Source of the DNA: Brevinematales bacterium
Lineage (GTDB): Bacteria; Spirochaetota; Brevinematia; Brevinematales; Thermospiraceae
Direction of reading: 5' to 3'
NCBI GenBank assembly: GCA_026417555.1
Contig: JAOADA010000003.1
Span: forward strand, 62,001 to 126,000
DNA length: 64,000 nt
Below, piece by piece: positions 28,160-63,845 of this stretch (position 1 is its first letter; every line of letters starts with the position of its first letter). A program made the position numbers and the translations under genes. Below the pieces are notes generated by a model. The model did no database searches, was not told the origin of the DNA, and saw only the letters and a program-made list of their open reading frames with translations.

Positions 28160-28444
28160 TTATAGACCAAGTGCCTTCATAATACGTTCCGCCACCGTAT
28201 CCAACACTTCCTGGGTATTGTAATCTCCTCTTTCGAGCTTGGCCTTTACCTCGGCAACTCTTTCCTCTCGAATATCTGGTGCCTGCCGAACAAGTTCTTC
28301 AACCTTGGCAGCTTCGGCAAGTTGCCTCGCCTCTTCAGAGATCTCTACCTCATCAGACGTATCTCGTCCATCTCTTCTCACTATCTTATTTATCTTCGTA
28401 TCCTGAGCTACTCCACGAAGAGGATCTACGCCGCGAATTTCCAT
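28160..28444 (-). CDS. flgM: Anti-sigma-28 factor FlgM
   Basis: FlgM binds the flagellar sigma factor FliA until the hook is complete and FlgM is exported. The 94-residue length, the disordered N-terminal half, and the C-terminal sigma-binding helices (VEELVRQAPDIREERVAEVKAKLERGDY, then AERIMKALGL) are typical. AGGAGGAG precedes the ATG. A FliA-type promoter with a perfect GCCGATAA -10 box lies just upstream, so the gene is controlled by the sigma factor it inhibits. No other flagellar gene is adjacent. Confidence 0.92.
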   Translation of the reverse strand: MEIRGVDPLRGVAQDTKINKIVRRDGRDTSDEVEISEEARQLAEAAKVEELVRQAPDIREERVAEVKAKLERGDYNTQEVLDTVAERIMKALGL

Positions 28445-28462: not shown

Positions 28463-28490
28463 TTATCGGCCTTCGATCACGGACACTTTA
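28463..28490 (-). promoter_or_regulatory. FliA (sigma-28) promoter for flgM
   Basis: On the minus strand TAAAGTGT (28490-28483) and GCCGATAA (28470-28463) are 12 bases apart, i.e. TAAA-N16-GCCGATAA, one base longer than the usual N15. TAAA coincides with the rsmI stop codon. Confidence 0.8.
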
Positions 28491-55708: not shown

Positions 55709-57625
55709 ATGAAAACATCGTCTTCTCTCACCCTTCGCGTTATCATAGCCACCTTCGTGAGTATTTATCTTTCTGTTTCCCTCTATTCGGTGATTTTGCC
55801 CTTTCTCTTTGTGATGGGTCCTGAGGAGAGAACGTCTTTTTGGATAAAGATGGCAGGAGTAGTCACTCTCTTGGGACCTCTGTGTTCTTTTATTGTCTAT
55901 CTTTTTTACCGACCTGTGGCGAGAGCGACTCTCCTTGCCAGGAAGGGAGAGGATATCCCCCATTGGCTCAGACACAAAGCCATGCGGTCTTTTCACGCTA
56001 TTCAGGGTTTTCTTTTTCTTGTTGGACTTCTCGCCTACGCAACTGGGGCGGCTCTCAATTTTCTCGCCGAGGTTATCATCGAACAGAAACCCTTTGTCCC
56101 ATTCTACTGGATGAGTCGTCTCATTCTCGCCCTCAGCTTTGGTATCCTCAATGGACTCGTCACCGCTCGTATGGTCAATCTGGCCTGGCTTGAAGCCAAA
56201 TACCTCATGGGAATCACCTCTCTTGAGGATAGTACCGAGAAATACGAATCCACTTTTCACAAAATATTTTTGCCAGGATTTCTTCTTCTTTTTTTCATTA
56301 CGACTTTTAGTACCATAGGGATCCTCTACTATCAGTATCATGTGCTGCAAACCTCTCAGAATGTCTCCTTCACCCAAGTAATATTTCATTTTCTTTTTAT
56401 TGAGGGATTTCTTCTTCTCATGGGCTCCCTTCTCCTCGCTACCATCCTCTGGGAAAACCAATCTCACATCTCGAACCTACGAAATCAGATTGTCAAACTC
56501 TCAGAAGGAGATATGAACCTGGCAAATCGTGTGTATGTTATCAGCTTTGACGACGTGGGAATGATGACGGCTGGTATCAACAAAATCCTCGAAAAACTCC
56601 AAAAAACCTTTTTCACCATCAGAGAGATGCAGCGTATTGTTCGCCAATCTGGTGAGATTACCAACAATATCATGACAAAGTCTCGAGAAGAGGCCGAAGA
56701 GGTGACCCACCTGATCACGGAAGCTGGTGAAAATTATGAAGCACAGGTTGATGTGATCAAAGAAGCTTCTCTCCGGTTCAAAGAAACCATGCAAGAGGTC
56801 AAAAAGGCCATCACCAATTTCCAAAACCAGCAAAGCGTTCTTGAGCATGTCTCTGAGTCCTTTCAGAAGGTGGCTTCTACCTTCAAGGACATGATCTCTA
56901 TGACCCTTTCTTCCACGGAACGATTCGAAAAACTCTCCAAAGTCATCACAGATGGTTCGGCTGGTCTCAAGGATCTTCTTGAGGCTACACGGAGTATCCA
57001 GGAAACCAACAGAAAAGTCTATGAGATTGTCAAGCTCATCATGGACATTTCAGATCAATCCAATATTCTCGCCATGAATGCGGCTATCGAGGCCTCACAC
57101 GCAGGAGAATACGGGAAAGGTTTTGCTATAGTGGCGTCTGAGGTGAGAGAACTCTCCATCCATACCGCTGATTCAGCCCGCCAGATAGAGTCTCTCATTC
57201 ACGAGATGCAACAGAAAAATGAGAGAGGGGCCTCTATTAATGAAAAACTCAACGAAATATTCAAGACTATGCAAAACGAGATGCAAGCCACCACGAGCCA
57301 GATAGAATCCATCGCCCAAATGGCACGACAAGAAACCTCCACTGCTGAAGCAAGTTTAAAAGAACTTGCCCAGATGCAGGAGGTAGCAAGAACCATCAAG
57401 GAAAATGTGAGTATCATTGAAACCAATGATGCTTCTCTCTCCGAAATCATGTCTCATCTTGGAGATACGGCTGAGAAACTCGCTTCTATCAGTCAAAGGC
57501 TTATGGAGGGTATCTCCTTTATCAGCCAGTCTTATGCAAATCTTGGAGATGCCTTCAGCAAGAGTTTTGATGCTATCCAACAACTCGACAAGGCTATGGC
57601 CAGTTTCAAGGTAGATCATGAATAA
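55709..57625 (+). CDS. Methyl-accepting chemotaxis protein with six membrane segments
   Basis: A 638-residue receptor. The first 260 residues have six hydrophobic segments joined by short loops, so there is no periplasmic sensor domain. A HAMP-like linker (ISNLRNQIVKLSEGDMNL) about residues 252-270 leads into the long coiled-coil signalling domain, whose tip has ILAMNAAIEASHAGEYGKGFAIVASEVREL. It should couple to CheA/CheW and control the flagella. Signals may be sensed in the membrane or cytoplasm. The end overlaps the next gene by eight bases; GAGGAG precedes the ATG. Confidence 0.93.
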   Translation: MKTSSSLTLRVIIATFVSIYLSVSLYSVILPFLFVMGPEERTSFWIKMAGVVTLLGPLCSFIVYLFYRPVARATLLARKGEDIPHWLRHKAMRSFHAIQGFLFLVGLLAYATGAALNFLAEVIIEQKPFVPFYWMSRLILALSFGILNGLVTARMVNLAWLEAKYLMGITSLEDSTEKYESTFHKIFLPGFLLLFFITTFSTIGILYYQYHVLQTSQNVSFTQVIFHFLFIEGFLLLMGSLLLATILWENQSHISNLRNQIVKLSEGDMNLANRVYVISFDDVGMMTAGINKILEKLQKTFFTIREMQRIVRQSGEITNNIMTKSREEAEEVTHLITEAGENYEAQVDVIKEASLRFKETMQEVKKAITNFQNQQSVLEHVSESFQKVASTFKDMISMTLSSTERFEKLSKVITDGSAGLKDLLEATRSIQETNRKVYEIVKLIMDISDQSNILAMNAAIEASHAGEYGKGFAIVASEVRELSIHTADSARQIESLIHEMQQKNERGASINEKLNEIFKTMQNEMQATTSQIESIAQMARQETSTAEASLKELAQMQEVARTIKENVSIIETNDASLSEIMSHLGDTAEKLASISQRLMEGISFISQSYANLGDAFSKSFDAIQQLDKAMASFKVDHE

Positions 57626-58601
57626 CTCTCTTCTTCGTTGGTGTTTTGCTCTGGTAGGTATTCCTCTTCTTCTCCATGGGTGGAGAACATGGTACTTTCC
57701 TGATTCGGGAGCGGATAGCACAGGTGTTGGGGGAGCATATACCACTTCTCTTACCGCTTCCCCAGATCTCCAACCGGCGGCTACTGGTTTCTCTGGAAGA
57801 CCTATCCTCGTCTGGGATCTCTCCGCTTCCCTTACCGTGAGAGATCCCTTCAGTGGACAATATACCCTCATCCCCGATCCCCTCCCTTACCTCGGCTTCT
57901 CTATAGGAAATTCCCAGTATGGAATAGGTATCTCTCTTCGACGGATTATCCGATCGATTGGTTCTGACCTGGCAATCTACCGGTCTGGACTAAGTGGCTC
58001 TTGGCTTCTTTTGCCTCATCTTCGCGTTGGAGGGTTTGTGGGTATGGTAAGTGGAACAGAATATTCCTCCTCCACAAGAGGCGGAACGTTTTCCCTCGGA
58101 ATCCTCTGGCAGATAAACCAAAACTGGCGAACAGGAGTCTCTTGGCAAAGTCTTCCTAAACTTGAGTGGTCTTTTTCTCCTTATGGAAGAAATGTCACAG
58201 AACATTTCCCCTCTCGTTTTGCTATCGGGATTTCCACATTTTCGGCACAAGGAGAATGGTTTGGAGAAATAAGCTATACCGATCCCTCAACTCTCTTTTT
58301 CTCATACGATGATATTACCGAGAGGCCGCTTTTTTCCCCTCTTACCCCCTTTACCTTTCATCTTGGTTGGAGAGGAAAACTCCCCTGGTGGAATATACCT
58401 TTTCATGCAGGCTTGTGGACAGACCATCTTTGGACATACCCTCGTCCCCTCCGACAATGGGCCTTTGCCGTAGGACTCCGGGCTATAGGAAAAAACGTGC
58501 AGCTTTCGTTTACGTGGGTAGATAGTTATCTTTTCTCTCTTTTCCTCCCAGAAGTTCAACCAATAGAAAGAGGCTTGGTTTCTTTGAGTTATCTTTTTTG
58601 A
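57618..58601 (+). CDS. Outer-membrane barrel protein, OmpP1/FadL-like
   Basis: A 327-residue exported protein with signal FALVGIPLLLHG. The mature N-terminus, about residues 35-60 (TGVGGAYTTSLTASPDLQPAATGF), has the Gly-rich then D-x-x-A/N-P-A-like plug pattern of OmpP1/FadL transport barrels. The rest alternates Gly, Ser and aromatic residues in strands. It ends in LSYLF with C-terminal Phe. Members of this fold move hydrophobic molecules across the outer membrane. The ATG lies inside the last codons of the receptor gene, so expression is coupled. Confidence 0.75.
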   Translation: MNNSLLRWCFALVGIPLLLHGWRTWYFPDSGADSTGVGGAYTTSLTASPDLQPAATGFSGRPILVWDLSASLTVRDPFSGQYTLIPDPLPYLGFSIGNSQYGIGISLRRIIRSIGSDLAIYRSGLSGSWLLLPHLRVGGFVGMVSGTEYSSSTRGGTFSLGILWQINQNWRTGVSWQSLPKLEWSFSPYGRNVTEHFPSRFAIGISTFSAQGEWFGEISYTDPSTLFFSYDDITERPLFSPLTPFTFHLGWRGKLPWWNIPFHAGLWTDHLWTYPRPLRQWAFAVGLRAIGKNVQLSFTWVDSYLFSLFLPEVQPIERGLVSLSYLF

Positions 58602-58609
58602 AAAATGCT

Positions 58610-59377
58610 TTATTTCCTCCGAGAATCGCACAACTCGAAAAAGGAAAACGCTTTTTGATACACTTCCTCTCTCCCTCGGCTCAAAGAAAGAAGAAATGGT
58701 CCTTCCAGGGCTTGTTTTTGTTTCAGATCCACAGGGGCCACAGAGAGAATATGTTCCATCACACTCTCAGAAACAAAACACGACCCTACCGAATACTGAA
58801 TCAAAAACGGAACCCGTATTCGTGTGGCATCTGTCCACAGAAGAACACAGGCCTTGGACAACGCAAACCAGAATCTCCCTGTAACCGATGAGCATACCAT
58901 CTCATCAGAAGCAATCGCCTTTGCTACCACTTCGTCATCTGTCATATCCTGAAGAAGAAAGGGTAGCTCAATTTGTTTATCAGGTTGGAGAGAAGCCATC
59001 ACATCCAGCTGGACTTTGCGAATCTTTGAGAATCCCATGTTTGTAGACAACACAGGATTCACAGCCACTACCCCACGGGGACATTTGGGATATTCGAGGG
59101 CATACAGAAGGGCTACTGTCCCTCCTATACTCTCCCCCCACACAAAGATATCTGCCTTAGGATCATGTTTTCGTATTTCCTGGGATATTTCAGCCACCTC
59201 CTTGGTATAATCGTGAAACGTCTCAATATCCCCCCGGTTTTGTTTGGTTGTCCGTCCAAATCCCAAAAGATCCGGACACTGCACCTTGTACCCCTTTTCC
59301 GTAAAAAACTCCTTGAGATATCCAAGATAGGCAGCATGAAGACCAAGAGCATGAAGAGCGATAAGATACTTTGCCAT
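58610..59377 (-). CDS. Alpha/beta-hydrolase, lipase-like, with degenerate catalytic triad
   Basis: A 255-residue serine-hydrolase fold protein similar to monoacylglycerol lipase-type hydrolases: CPDLLGFGRTTKQNRG, then the nucleophile elbow WGESIGGTVAL with Ser83, and YPKCPRGVVAVNPVLS. The positions expected for the acid and base look changed. The G-x-x-D-x-x-V segment reads GSCFVSESV, and the G-x-x-H-E-L segment before REEV reads GPFLLSLSRGREEV with no His. It may be inactive or use other residues. AGAGGAG precedes the ATG, and a FliA-type -10 box lies just upstream. Confidence 0.82.
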   Translation of the reverse strand: MAKYLIALHALGLHAAYLGYLKEFFTEKGYKVQCPDLLGFGRTTKQNRGDIETFHDYTKEVAEISQEIRKHDPKADIFVWGESIGGTVALLYALEYPKCPRGVVAVNPVLSTNMGFSKIRKVQLDVMASLQPDKQIELPFLLQDMTDDEVVAKAIASDEMVCSSVTGRFWFALSKACVLLWTDATRIRVPFLIQYSVGSCFVSESVMEHILSVAPVDLKQKQALEGPFLLSLSRGREEVYQKAFSFFELCDSRRK

Positions 59378-59395
59378 TTTTCTCCTCTTTTTTTA

Positions 59396-59403
59396 TTATC
59401 GGC
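59396..59403 (-). promoter_or_regulatory. FliA (sigma-28) -10 element upstream of the hydrolase
   Basis: On the minus strand GCCGATAA is a perfect sigma-28 -10 box, placed 18 bases before the ATG, the same distance as at flgM. The -35 region (TTGATTTC) matches poorly. Confidence 0.5.
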
Positions 59404-59623
59404 AAGTGTTTGTGAGAAATCAAGACCCCCGACATCTTCTCAAAGCATCAAGATATGGTTTCTTTTTTCAAGCCTTGTTCATCTTTTTTTTCACAGGAAG
59501 AAACATCACTCCCGCCTTCTTCAAAAACCTTTTTTCTCAAGGATATTTCCCTACCAAGAGAGAAAAGAAACATCTTTTTGTACCTCTCCTACCACACCCC
59601 ATGAAAGGCTTTTTTCTCAGCCT

Positions 59624-62101
59624 CTATGCCCTATACACAATCAGCATGGTTTTGTCATCGGTGGCGGGTGCCTCTCCACAGAAGGTAGAGAGTTCCCTTA
59701 TGATGCCATCTCGCATTCCTTCTACATTTGGAGAAGCATACCGAACAATCGCCTCATAGAAACGCGTCTCACCAAACTCCTCACTTTTCTGATTCTTTGC
59801 CTCAGTTATCCCATCGGTATAAAGGATCAAAAACTCCCCTTGCCGCAAGGATACCTTGTAGAGCTGCATCTCTGGATCAAAAATGGAAGACTCCACCATT
59901 CCTACTGGCATTCCTCCCCCTTTAAGGAGGCGGATCTTTTTTTCTTCTGGGAGGTAGAGAATCCCCTGTTGATGCCCTGCACTCGTGTAATACAGCTCAT
60001 GGTTCTTGGTATCCAAAACCCCATAGAAAACCGTAGCAAACATCGTGGGTAACGTATCACGATAAAGAATGGGATTCACCTCTTTGAGTACCCTGGCAGC
60101 ATCCAGTTTTCCTACTGCATAGGTACGAAGAGTAGACCTCAGCATAGCCATGACCATGCCGGCCCCTACTCCATGCCCAGTAACATCGGCTACCACCACA
60201 CCAAGCCGACTTTCCCCTACCTCCACAAAGTCATAATAATCTCCTCCCGACTCAGTCTGTGGTTGATAATACACACTGAAAAGATACCCCAAAACCCGTG
60301 GATATTCCCTAGGAAGGATAGCACTCTGAATCTCCTTGGCTGATTCAAGCTCCGCTTCCATGCGGCTTTTTTCCTTCACCTCCTGAAACATCTTGGCAAT
60401 CCGAAGGCTCATCGCATTGAAACGGTCGGCTAGATCACCAATCTCATCCGAGGAGTGCACCTCGACCTGCTTTCCCCACTTTCCTGAGGCAATCTCCTCT
60501 GTCCCTTCCGCAAGCTTCGCCAACGACTGAAGCAAAAACCTCACAAAGATCCAGGCAAGCAAAAGCACCCTGAGAAGCAAAAAGAGAGCCAAATCCACCG
60601 ACCGACGCTCTATCTCCTTTTGTTGCTTTGCAAAATCGTCAATAGAAAGAAGAATTGCCACCGTCCCTGTCCGGTAAGGGGCATAGAGATGGCGAAAAAG
60701 GTTATGTACCGTCTCGCTATCAAAATCCCGACTCTGTGTCCAATACGCACTCAGCATAAGCCAAGATTCTGCGGCTTTTTTGATACTATTGACAAAATAC
60801 GTCTTCTCAAAAACAGCTGTATACCCCTCCTGGGTAAAACGCAGAGGAGAAACCCTCCCCATTTCCACACGATTCGAGGCATAGCCTGCCAGAAGTTCAT
60901 CAAAAGCCTCTGTGGTTTTCCAGTTTTTCTTGTCCTGTGAGGGAGAAAACTCCAGATATCTTCTCAAATACCGTTCTATACTCTCCAAAAAAACGAGTGT
61001 CTGCTTCTCCTCCTCTCCCAGGAGGTTGGTATGGGCAAAGATTCGCTTCTTCCGATAAAGAGTCTGAAGGTGTTTCACTTCTTTCTCAGACATTCCTGTC
61101 ACCTGAAACCATTTTACGAGGTTGGCCATCTGATTGGAAGAAAGCGTAATTTCCTGCCCTCGCTTATACTGATCAAAACGTGCCTTCAGGGTATACACCC
61201 CTCTCACCAAAGATGATGTCATCACTCCCTTGGATTTGAGGCGTTCTCCAGCGGCGGTAAGATCCCCAGAGGAGGTAAAGTATCGCCTATACGTCTCATC
61301 AAACATCCTAATATAGACAAAATTTCTCCGTACCTCCGAAGGAAGAGATCTCTTCCGAAACAATTTCCCTGCCTCAAGGTCTGAGATATACTTTTGCCAC
61401 TCTTGGCCAACCTTACTCTCTATAAAAGCCTTGTCATACAAAGGAATAAAAGCCTCATAGGATCGCTGAAGCCTCACAAAATACAAACGGGGGAGATACC
61501 CATCATAAATAACTCCTCGATTGGTCTCGCTAATCTTTTCCCCGATCGCTGAGGGTATCGTATGAAACACCACATATCCATTCGGATCCACAAAAAAAGC
61601 CATGGTAAAAGAGGGAATATTGGTCAAGGTATAGAGATACTCTTGAATAGACTGATACTGCCTCTGAATAAGAATCTGCTGTTGCTTCTGTTGTTGAAGC
61701 TTCTGCTGACGGGTTTGCTCTTTCATGGCAGATTTCAGTACAGCAATCTGCTTCTGAAGTTGCTTTTGTTTCTGTTGGGTGCCAAAAATATTCTCCAGAA
61801 AGCGATTCAAAACGTTTTCCTCGTTCTCTGGTGTCGTAGAAGAGAGAAAAGGGGTCTCAGGAGAAGAGACTACCACTTCTCCCCACTTATCTCGTCCATA
61901 CTCTTCCACATTCCTCCGAAATGCCTCAAGATACACACGAAGATTTTTTGCGATGAGATCTTCCTGGGCCTTTTTCTGTTGAAGCGTGCTATACCGCAAA
62001 AAAGGAAAAGCAAAAACAAGAAAGACACCTGCTACAAAAAATACCACCTTCACTTGAAGACTCACCCGCGGCCAAACAAATGCTTTTTGTCTTCTTCTCA
62101 T
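59624..62101 (-). CDS. Membrane-bound SpoIIE/RsbU-type serine phosphatase
   Basis: An 825-residue protein. A membrane segment (VKVVFFVAGVFLVFAFPFL) near the N-terminus is followed by a very Gln/Lys-rich coiled coil (about 100-145), a large probably periplasmic domain, and a second membrane segment about 510-530 (LALFLLLRVLLLAWIFVRFLL). A HAMP domain and a PP2C-type phosphatase domain from about 590 (SGGDYYDFVEVG, VVADVTGHGVGAGMVMAM) follow. Such proteins dephosphorylate anti-anti-sigma or similar regulators in response to signals. It is the last gene of a signalling operon with a cyclic-nucleotide-binding protein, a potassium channel and a PilZ protein. Confidence 0.9.
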   Translation of the reverse strand: MRRRQKAFVWPRVSLQVKVVFFVAGVFLVFAFPFLRYSTLQQKKAQEDLIAKNLRVYLEAFRRNVEEYGRDKWGEVVVSSPETPFLSSTTPENEENVLNRFLENIFGTQQKQKQLQKQIAVLKSAMKEQTRQQKLQQQKQQQILIQRQYQSIQEYLYTLTNIPSFTMAFFVDPNGYVVFHTIPSAIGEKISETNRGVIYDGYLPRLYFVRLQRSYEAFIPLYDKAFIESKVGQEWQKYISDLEAGKLFRKRSLPSEVRRNFVYIRMFDETYRRYFTSSGDLTAAGERLKSKGVMTSSLVRGVYTLKARFDQYKRGQEITLSSNQMANLVKWFQVTGMSEKEVKHLQTLYRKKRIFAHTNLLGEEEKQTLVFLESIERYLRRYLEFSPSQDKKNWKTTEAFDELLAGYASNRVEMGRVSPLRFTQEGYTAVFEKTYFVNSIKKAAESWLMLSAYWTQSRDFDSETVHNLFRHLYAPYRTGTVAILLSIDDFAKQQKEIERRSVDLALFLLLRVLLLAWIFVRFLLQSLAKLAEGTEEIASGKWGKQVEVHSSDEIGDLADRFNAMSLRIAKMFQEVKEKSRMEAELESAKEIQSAILPREYPRVLGYLFSVYYQPQTESGGDYYDFVEVGESRLGVVVADVTGHGVGAGMVMAMLRSTLRTYAVGKLDAARVLKEVNPILYRDTLPTMFATVFYGVLDTKNHELYYTSAGHQQGILYLPEEKKIRLLKGGGMPVGMVESSIFDPEMQLYKVSLRQGEFLILYTDGITEAKNQKSEEFGETRFYEAIVRYASPNVEGMRDGIIRELSTFCGEAPATDDKTMLIVYRA

Positions 62102-62150: not shown

Positions 62151-62669
62151 TCATTTTCGCTTGCTCACCACAATAGAAAGCGCTGTTGTCAGTTTCAAGA
62201 TATTCTGATTGAGAGTACGGATACGTTCACACAACACCCCCGCAATGGCCCGCAAAAGCTTATACCCGAGGGTATGGTTCTCATCACAAAGACGATAAAA
62301 GTCCTTCTGAAATACCTCATAAAGATCCACATCGGTCATAGCCTTGACGGTAGCAGAACGGGGAGCTCCCGTCAAAAGTGACATCTCCCCAAAAAAAGGC
62401 ATCTTCGTCTCATCATAGGTCGCAATTGATTTTTCTGCCTCGAGCCACTCCTCCCCTGCTCGTCGCAACGTGATCTGGCTCGTCACCTGTACCACCCCCT
62501 TTCTAAACAAAAAAAGCGACGTCCCTTCTTCCCCTTCACTCACAATCACCTCTCCCTTCTTATATCGCCTCTCATGGAGAAGAGAAGCCACCACAACCCT
62601 TTCTTGTTCCGTGAGTTCCGAAAACAAAGAAAGGGTAGACAAAAATTCTTCCCGTTCTCTTCCCTTCAT
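62151..62669 (-). CDS. Cyclic-nucleotide-binding domain protein
   Basis: A 172-residue protein made of one cNMP-binding domain: KGEVIVSEGEEGTSLFLFRKG, then the phosphate-binding cassette FFGEMSLLTGAPRSATVKAM about residues 91-110 with the key Glu and Arg, and a C-terminal helix. There is no DNA-binding domain or enzymatic domain, so it must act on a partner. It lies nine bases after the potassium channel gene and 49 bases before the phosphatase gene, which makes either a plausible partner. GGGGGG precedes the ATG. Confidence 0.88.
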   Translation of the reverse strand: MKGREREEFLSTLSLFSELTEQERVVVASLLHERRYKKGEVIVSEGEEGTSLFLFRKGVVQVTSQITLRRAGEEWLEAEKSIATYDETKMPFFGEMSLLTGAPRSATVKAMTDVDLYEVFQKDFYRLCDENHTLGYKLLRAIAGVLCERIRTLNQNILKLTTALSIVVSKRK

Positions 62670-62678
62670 AGCCCCCCC

Positions 62679-63845
62679 TTACCGTATAACAAACGCATAG
62701 GCATCATCTCGAGAGATCACATAATCATCCGGCGGATTGATTTTGACATGATACTTTACCCCCTCCTCTCCTACTTCATCAGCAAGTTTTGAACGAATAA
62801 ATTCATCAATCGCATCATTTCCAGAAAGCATGTCCTCAATACTCAGCTCCTTTTCCGTACGATACAGCCCTACAACCATGAGCTTCTCCCTCTCTCGAAG
62901 AGCAAGAAAATACTCTCGAAAGCTCTTCCCCACAAAACGAGAATCAACAGGAATAATCAAAAGACGAGGATTCTCATAGCTCGCCACAAGATCCTGAAAA
63001 AAAAGGGGCATAGCAGGAGAAACCATGGACGCTGAGAGAAGCGCCGGACTGAATATCCCATTGAATACCACATGCTCTACCCCCGCCCTTTTCAAAGCAC
63101 TTGCTTTTTCTATCTTGATTGCCTCTGCACTCACCGCAAGATCTGGATTCAAAGCCTTCAGGCTCAGGGTCGCCATAATCGTCCGCTCATCCGCATCATC
63201 CAGGGATCTATGATGAAAGTTGTCCGCCAGAATAAAGGCATGCGTGGCATTCTCCACATGAGCACGTTTCAAGACACTCTCCTTGGTATAGTCACCAAAC
63301 ACAAACTTCATCACAAAGTGCGGAAATTTGTTCTTCACCTCAAGAAACTCATCCTCCGTCATGTCATTGACTAAAACGACACACAAATGCCGCTGTTGGG
63401 TGAACTCCGGCAAAACCGAAAGAAGCTTCTCCAAATAGCTATTCACCCCAAGAATAAGGATATGATTCTTCACCCTCACCACTGATAACCCTCTCCTTTC
63501 TTTGAGTTTCTTATCTATCAAAAAGGACACAATCTGTCCACTTAAGATAGCATAAAATGCCACACCAAACACTATCACCACCACTCCTATCACACGCCCT
63601 CCTACAGTCTTCGGAACAATATCTCCATATCCAACCGTAGGAATAGTCACAATAAGCCACCACAAGGCATCCCCCAGCGTGCGAAAGAGGGTATTTCCTC
63701 CTCTCCATTCCACCCACCATACCAACGGTACAAGCCCCATCAAACACAGGAAAAGACCAAACACCAATCTATTGCTTGGTTCTGAAAACCAGGCAACAAA
63801 TCTTTTCCAGAGAAATATCTCTTTTCGTGGCTTTTGTTCTTTCAT
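62679..63845 (-). CDS. Potassium channel with RCK (TrkA-N) domain
   Basis: A 388-residue two-segment channel: first segment about residues 29-46, pore helix and the selectivity filter TVGYGD at residues 70-75, second segment about 85-108, then an RCK/TrkA-N domain from about 127 (HILILGVNSYLEKLLSVL, with VNDMTEDEF) and a second regulatory lobe to the end. It resembles MthK/Kch-type gated potassium channels; the Rossmann motif is not the usual GxGxxG, so the ligand is uncertain. Its start overlaps the stop of the upstream PilZ-like gene (ATGA). Confidence 0.92.
   Translation of the reverse strand: MKEQKPRKEIFLWKRFVAWFSEPSNRLVFGLFLCLMGLVPLVWWVEWRGGNTLFRTLGDALWWLIVTIPTVGYGDIVPKTVGGRVIGVVVIVFGVAFYAILSGQIVSFLIDKKLKERRGLSVVRVKNHILILGVNSYLEKLLSVLPEFTQQRHLCVVLVNDMTEDEFLEVKNKFPHFVMKFVFGDYTKESVLKRAHVENATHAFILADNFHHRSLDDADERTIMATLSLKALNPDLAVSAEAIKIEKASALKRAGVEHVVFNGIFSPALLSASMVSPAMPLFFQDLVASYENPRLLIIPVDSRFVGKSFREYFLALREREKLMVVGLYRTEKELSIEDMLSGNDAIDEFIRSKLADEVGEEGVKYHVKINPPDDYVISRDDAYAFVIR

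Follow-up and report, generated by a model that had tools for sequence, protein, structure and literature searches.

The window, a 64,000-nucleotide stretch of the genome of a Brevinematales bacterium (G000), carries on its minus strand at 58610..59377 an ORF of 255 amino acids with an ATG start and the Shine-Dalgarno-like sequence GAGGAG. The product, a member of the Pfam family Hydrolase_4, is shorter than its relatives by ~27 residues at the N terminus, has neither the catalytic acid nor the catalytic base, and is referred to here as the pseudo-hydrolase. Two further genomes of the same genus, G001 (58% identity) and G002 (72%), each hold one orthologue at E 1e-8. Identities among the genus orthologues are 58-73%, and all three share the start MAKYLIAL and an open frame of 255 codons with no stop. 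In the ORF list the G001 frame starts nine codons earlier, at TTG.

The same gene order on one strand was found in three of three genomes: two flaA genes are followed by genes for a WD40-repeat protein, a PilZ/DUF1577 protein, a K+ channel-like/RCK protein, a cyclic-nucleotide-binding (cNMP) protein, a HAMP-SpoIIE phosphatase, and the pseudo-hydrolase. Families were assigned by Pfam scan of G000, with the PilZ protein scanned in G002 as well. The window contains the genes for the K+ channel-like protein with a TrkA_N/RCK domain (62679..63845), the cyclic-nucleotide-binding domain protein (62151..62669), and, upstream of the pseudo-hydrolase, the HAMP-SpoIIE (PP2C-type) phosphatase (59624..62101), all on the minus strand. 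The WD40-repeat gene (Pfam assignment; L139 3088-4119) lies just outside the window in G000, between the flaA and PilZ/DUF1577 genes, as it does in all three genomes. The flaA genes probably form a separate transcription unit, since the second of them is followed by a terminator-like hairpin (L139 4130-4107). The PilZ/DUF1577 architecture resembles that of YcgR-GAZ, for which c-di-GMP binding has been reported in Leptospirales and two copies in Thermospira aquatica (PMC11800159). From the other side, a convergent pair meets the pseudo-hydrolase in all three genomes. It consists of a gene with no Pfam family at E 0.001 and a genus-conserved position (57618..58601, plus strand) and a methyl-accepting chemotaxis protein (MCP) gene (55709..57625, plus strand) with a conserved FliA-like TCAA-N16-GTCGAT upstream.

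The gap between the phosphatase and pseudo-hydrolase genes measures 63 bp in G002, 48 bp in G001, and 246 bp in G000 (59378-59623), where it is ~190 bp longer than in the two relatives. A blastn comparison of the G000 gap with the window gave just short chance-like matches. No terminator-like site was found on the hydrolase strand within the 246 bp. We infer co-transcription of the pseudo-hydrolase with the upstream signalling genes.

Fold and catalytic residues

The first-pass annotation of this DNA described the product as a lipase-like hydrolase, and both the profile score and the predicted fold bear this out. The Hydrolase_4 profile was matched at 2.6e-32 (112.5 bits against a cut-off of 27), and the best solved relatives in the sequence search were monoglyceride lipases. 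An AlphaFold2 model was built from a 27-row alignment, consisting of the 3 genus orthologues and 24 rows from outside the genus and covering 27 of 37 distinct places. The model had a mean pLDDT of 94.9 and a pTM of 0.93 and showed a monoacylglycerol lipase-type fold with its cap. Its best solved structural match was 6qe2 from Palaeococcus (Z 31.4, rmsd 2.2, 244 residues aligned), which spans residues 1-251 of the pseudo-hydrolase at 19% identity. Fold and cap are thus common, over the whole length, to the pseudo-hydrolase and the monoacylglycerol lipases (human MGLL, Mycobacterium Rv0183, Palaeococcus 6qe2), from which it differs by the lost Asp and His and the shorter N terminus. The N terminus is formed by the strand with the oxyanion motif, and ~27 N-terminal residues of two aligned relatives are absent.

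The loss of the catalytic Asp and His had been placed in the segments GSCFVS and GPFLLS. Both assignments proved right, since the genus lacks the two residues and all outside rows keep both. In the acid column of the 27-row alignment, every one of the 24 outside rows has Asp, whereas all three genus orthologues have Ser (Ser199, codon 58781..58783, minus strand). The acid loop reads YSVGSCFVSE, with the lost Asp aligned to S199 and not to C200. In the base column, His is present in 24 of 24 outside rows and deleted in all three orthologues. The base loop reads EGPFLLSLS, and the loss appears as a 3-residue deletion after G226 in the 27-row alignment and as a 1-residue deletion there in a 5-row alignment; the flanking codons, G226-P227, lie at 58697..58702 on the minus strand. 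In a wider set of 40 fetched loci, Asp and His were found in all 37 non-genus rows (34 distinct places, one fragment). Part of these loci came from a phylum search with matches in 94 of 392 genomes, of which the best 30 matches were read. The nucleophile elbow, described as intact, is so in the window, where it reads GESIGG (residues 81-86; Ser83 codon, 59129..59131, minus strand), and G002 has GESLGG, but G001 reads GENLGA. The nucleophile column therefore holds Ser, Ser, and Asn within the genus; the other 24 rows hold Ser in 21, Asp in 2, and Gly in 1. All codon coordinates were computed from the ORF start.

Variation at the nucleophile position was also seen elsewhere among Hydrolase_4 proteins. 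L005 (G041) and L006 (G029) have Asp in place of Ser (GEDIGG and CEDMGG), and L080 (G221) and L081 (G098) have Gly (GEGFGAM) together with the oxyanion sequence HD; Asp and His are kept in both pairs. The L005 and L006 genes adjoin a gene that resembles phosphoglycerate mutase by eye. A fragment grouped with them, L089 (G051), is without the nucleophile region.

Several candidate substitutes for the lost residues were considered and rejected. The segment after strand beta6, AVNPVLSTN, offers no Asp or Glu in the G000 protein; in G001, a Glu follows slightly further on (AVNPLLSLELG). H9 is part of the oxyanion motif; H55 and H209, although invariant in all three orthologues, lie within helices of the model; and position 200, His in two orthologues, is Cys in G000 and so offers no substitute common to the three. 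The base loops of the three genus orthologues contain no His. Beyond H209, towards the C terminus, two orthologues have no His and the third has a single one, H252, in the tail. That acid and base are gone from all three proteins, and Ser from one, speaks against a canonical mechanism within this genus, and the alignments indicate that the pseudo-hydrolase is very probably non-catalytic by a Ser-His-Asp triad.

Conservation within the genus was uneven along the protein. Invariant positions make up 53% of the whole protein, 64% of the cap (139-188), and 75% of the former acid loop (189-204), and 21% of segment 111-138. NG86 dN/dS values for the three pairs were 0.125, 0.147, and 0.145, which are only rough because dS (1.6-2.4) is saturated. 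Ratios for the phosphatase, cNMP, channel, and MCP genes were lower (0.026-0.092 for computable pairs), so the pseudo-hydrolase changes more quickly than these, at a rate close to that of the convergent gene (0.144 and 0.172 for the two of three pairs that gave a value). With these ratios and identities of 58-73%, the gene looks like that of a pseudoenzyme that is maintained rather than decaying. Against this reading stand the saturated dS, the faster evolution than that of the phosphatase, cNMP, and channel genes, and the sample of only three genomes.

Two other readings of the losses were weighed. The protein may still be an enzyme whose pocket supports a rearranged mechanism or another chemistry, such as another base or a reaction that uses the oxyanion pocket only. 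The conserved pocket-side segments and cap, the invariant H55 and H209, and the varying nucleophile of other family members (Asp in two, Gly in two) would suit such a protein, but the Asn nucleophile of one orthologue, an oxyanion HG that reads HA, HD, and HG across the genus, the base-loop His missing from all three, and the lack of an acid directly after beta6 in G000 make it improbable. Decay of the gene or an assembly error is disfavoured and, in our estimate, very improbable. It would agree with a long genus branch and with a dN/dS above that of the neighbouring signalling genes, whereas three separate genomes agree, the same 255 codons are open in each, and dN/dS is well below 1.

The branch length was taken from a tree of 36 of the 40 wider-set loci, from which one fragment and three repeat retrievals of places already present were omitted. 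The genus stem measures 3.35 changes per site, which fits a change of function and also makes the placement of the genus unsure. The tree sets the genus beside the Asp-nucleophile rows with 94/83 support and a long-branch warning, and this placement was not relied on. A wider search of genome contigs with a single-protein query returned no orthologue. With a 3-row alignment, the contig search gave one match, JABLXN010000012.1 (Brevinematales bacterium Ch60), which is the G002 orthologue again, and a plasmid search gave one match at 25.6%. The pseudo-hydrolase is so far known only from this Brevinematales genus (three genomes).

Sequence upstream of the start codon

A FliA-type -10-like box, GCCGATAA, is located at 59396..59403 on the minus strand, 18 bases before the ATG, exactly as the first-pass annotation had it. 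The yardstick for a complete FliA promoter was flgM (28160..28444, minus strand; Pfam FlgM, 4.8e-12), where the -35 element TAAAGTGT runs from 28490 down and GCCGATAA occupies 28463-28470, likewise 18 bases before the start, giving TAAA-N16-GCCGATAA. The geometry claimed to be that of flgM therefore holds for the box and the 18-base spacing, but the flgM -35 is missing at the pseudo-hydrolase. Two copies of the octamer occur in the window, at these two genes (shuffle mean 0.79; 21 of 100 shuffles reach two). Genome-wide, 27 copies were counted compared with 70 for the reversed control, so the octamer is not enriched as such. Among the 27, a script rule found the box 15-25 nt before a start codon with a Shine-Dalgarno sequence at flgM, the pseudo-hydrolase, and the sigma-factor-like gene L038. 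This last gene (L038/L055, G000:C28:25579), an ECF-like sigma factor by eye, carries GCCGATAA at 21 nt from its start codon, with TAAA another 17 nt upstream. A small lipoprotein gene by eye (L050, L051, L062) has TAAA-N16-GCCGATA upstream in all three genomes and is a candidate member of the FliA regulon.

The proposed check of orthologues for the same box was run. At the box position they read TCCGATAA and GTCGATAA: all three genomes keep the core CGATAAT at 17-18 nt from the start codon, but the full octamer (8/8) is confined to G000, with 7/8 in G001 and G002. The first three box bases vary (GCC, TCC, GTC), and GATAAT falls within the invariant part. The three orthologues share the run CGATAATAAAAAAAG (59387..59401, minus strand; 17-18 nt from box to ATG) without a mismatch, and none of the other upstream regions in a comparison of six had an identical run as long (15 versus 4-9). 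Over 60 bp, 26 columns are identical upstream of the pseudo-hydrolase compared with 25-41 elsewhere, which is not higher. The conserved run suggests selection on an element, part of it overlapping the ribosome-binding region.

FliA is encoded in all three genomes (TIGR02479 above cut-off). Genus FliA-like promoters, each present in three of three genomes, read TAAA-N16-GCCGATA at flgM, TAAA-N15-GTCGAAAC at one flaB group, and TCAA-N16-GTCGAT at the neighbouring MCP. At N16 the pseudo-hydrolase has TTGA in G000, TTTT in G002, and TAAC in G001, none of them the genus TAAA; only in G001 is the -35 good, the other two scoring no better than background. A FliA matrix was trained on 11 of 28 pattern matches, which precede flgM, one flaB group, and two further sets of genes; the remaining flagellin groups are without the training pattern. 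The pseudo-hydrolase sites scored 12.7 (G000), 5.3 (G002), and 16.6 (G001), compared with 19.0-22.7 for the 11 training promoters. Among 383,820 placements in the window, flgM ranked first and the G000 site third. The G001 site was surpassed by flgM alone, and the G002 site ranked 156. When flgM was held out of training, flgM scored 15.7 (rank 2) and G001 16.5. After addition of three MCP promoters to the matrix, scores were 10.8, 4.2, and 16.2 for G000, G002, and G001 (ranks 10, 271, and 2), and the MCP site itself scored 17.8 (rank 2). From the scores and the -35 quality, the site looks like a fair FliA promoter in G001, a weak one in G000, and hardly one in G002. MCP upstream regions were scanned at 24 loci, of which 3 stop short of the gene start and several have uncertain starts. 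TCAA-N16-GTCGAT was found at the three orthologues of the neighbouring MCP (window 55709-57625, L016, L017). One G001 MCP (L140) has TCCGATAA without a -35, like the pseudo-hydrolase, and the others gave weak or no matches.

The FliA look may be incidental, the element being an ordinary sigma-70 promoter or a conserved A-rich ribosome-binding leader. An overlapping sigma-70-like site, TTGATT-N17-GATAAT (9/12 match), lies at 59395..59423 on the minus strand, and G001 has TTAACT-N18-GATAAT. In both genomes the -35 matches at 4/6 (at 17 and 18 nt), so that the sigma-70 reading is about as good as FliA in two of three genomes; the invariance of GATAAT beside three variable box bases speaks for it or for the leader. 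G002, however, has nothing good (at best 2/6 at 16-18 nt), and such sites are common by chance (6 in a 2.2-kb region, with 2.5 expected from shuffles). We regard this account as quite possible, if rather short of an even chance. Read the other way, the box could mark a stand-alone accessory protein of the motility regulon, with its own FliA promoter, a flagellar or chemotaxis target, and no tie to the phosphatase. The 18-nt spacing shared with flgM, the core and FliA found in every genome, the high placement of the G000 and G001 sites, the two flaA genes upstream, and the convergent MCP with its conserved FliA-like promoter all agree with this. A weak -35 is also compatible with FliA, because a mapped sigma-28 promoter of Treponema denticola (flaB2) is reported as CCGATAA with a -35 of TTAA (PMC9481697). 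Against it are the divergent -35 sequences, the score of 5.3 in G002, the position of all three sites below the training range, the overlapping sigma-70 site, and the short gap to the phosphatase gene, which allows read-through. Such a stand-alone protein is rather unlikely, in our estimate. For the motility control suggested at first reading, the encoded FliA, the conserved core, and the third rank in G000 thus have to be set against low scores, a poor -35, and the sigma-70 overlap. FliA control of the pseudo-hydrolase may be real, with the promoter sequences leaving it close to balanced and leaning slightly towards no.

A possible role beside the phosphatase

Given the conserved cap and the place of the gene beside signalling genes, a binding or regulatory role is likely for the pseudo-hydrolase. 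The reading that we put forward, at somewhat less than even confidence, is that of a non-catalytic, cap-bearing binding protein that acts on the upstream phosphatase in the manner of RsbQ and RsbP but without catalysis. On this reading, a protein of the monoacylglycerol lipase type would have retained its core fold, and the cap that covers what was once the active site, without acid and base, and would serve as a cytosolic binding protein; its gene closes the conserved series of signalling genes. That the cap, the oxyanion-side strand, and the pocket loops have been kept suggests that shape is conserved, either as a pocket under the cap or as a docking face. The old pocket and cap may accordingly sense a small hydrophobic ligand, or the cap may serve for docking. 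Ligand binding itself we infer. The pseudo-hydrolase would then tune the phosphatase encoded just upstream, as a non-catalytic counterpart of RsbQ acting on RsbP.

The HAMP-SpoIIE phosphatase is proposed as the partner from gene order, and tentatively. In Bacillus subtilis RsbQ-RsbP, a hydrolase-fold gene likewise adjoins a PPM/PP2C phosphatase gene, as in three of three genomes of the genus. RsbQ, however, is reported to keep and need its triad, and RsbP to have a PAS domain (PMC3183031), whereas the genus pair has no triad and a HAMP domain. A Pfam scan of the G000 phosphatase at E 0.001 showed only HAMP and SpoIIE and no PAS domain, although a very divergent PAS would escape such a scan. 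The gene order may also reflect co-location with flagellar genes rather than contact. In addition, in a sister family (f2), a 37-40% relative of the phosphatase is present in four of four genomes with no hydrolase neighbour within the fetched 11-12 kb. No channel, cNMP, YcgR-like, hydrolase, MCP, or convergent-gene matches were obtained at these loci by tblastn at E 1e-3. Because the neighbours are absent from the fetched 11-12 kb, f2 gives no outside test of the pairing of hydrolase and phosphatase.

Non-catalytic alpha/beta-hydrolases have already been described in plants and animals. The gibberellin receptor GID1 is reported to have arisen from a lipase-like enzyme via loss of the His, with a lid over the old active site (PMC3531792). 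It is a plant protein related to hormone-sensitive lipases and keeps Ser and Asp for ligand contact, whereas the pseudo-hydrolase has lost the Asp too. In the NDRG proteins, which have the alpha/beta-hydrolase fold, triad residues are reported as replaced by non-reactive ones, and in NDRG3 the whole triad is gone (PMC7022630). The likeness to the pseudo-hydrolase lies in the triad loss; NDRG proteins are human, belong to another subfamily, and have blocked access to the pocket. As reported, a lipase fold turned pure receptor (GID1) and a dispensable triad (NDRG3) provide precedent for a binding-only pseudo-hydrolase. For a bacterial non-catalytic case of the monoacylglycerol lipase type, none was found among the titles and abstract openings listed by searches of open-access literature, which is no proof of absence.

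The fullest form of the proposal, which we consider improbable, is a signalling receptor derived from a monoacylglycerol lipase through loss of acid and base, encoded in a c-di-GMP/K+/cyclic-nucleotide operon beside the spirochaete flagellar sheath genes and switched on with the late flagellar genes, whose binding of a ligand is by itself enough to gate a SpoIIE-type phosphatase. If true, such a receptor would be a bacterial non-catalytic parallel to GID1 and RsbQ. The conserved pseudo-hydrolase beside a PP2C-type phosphatase offers a simple test of whether an RsbQ-RsbP-like pairing could function through binding alone.
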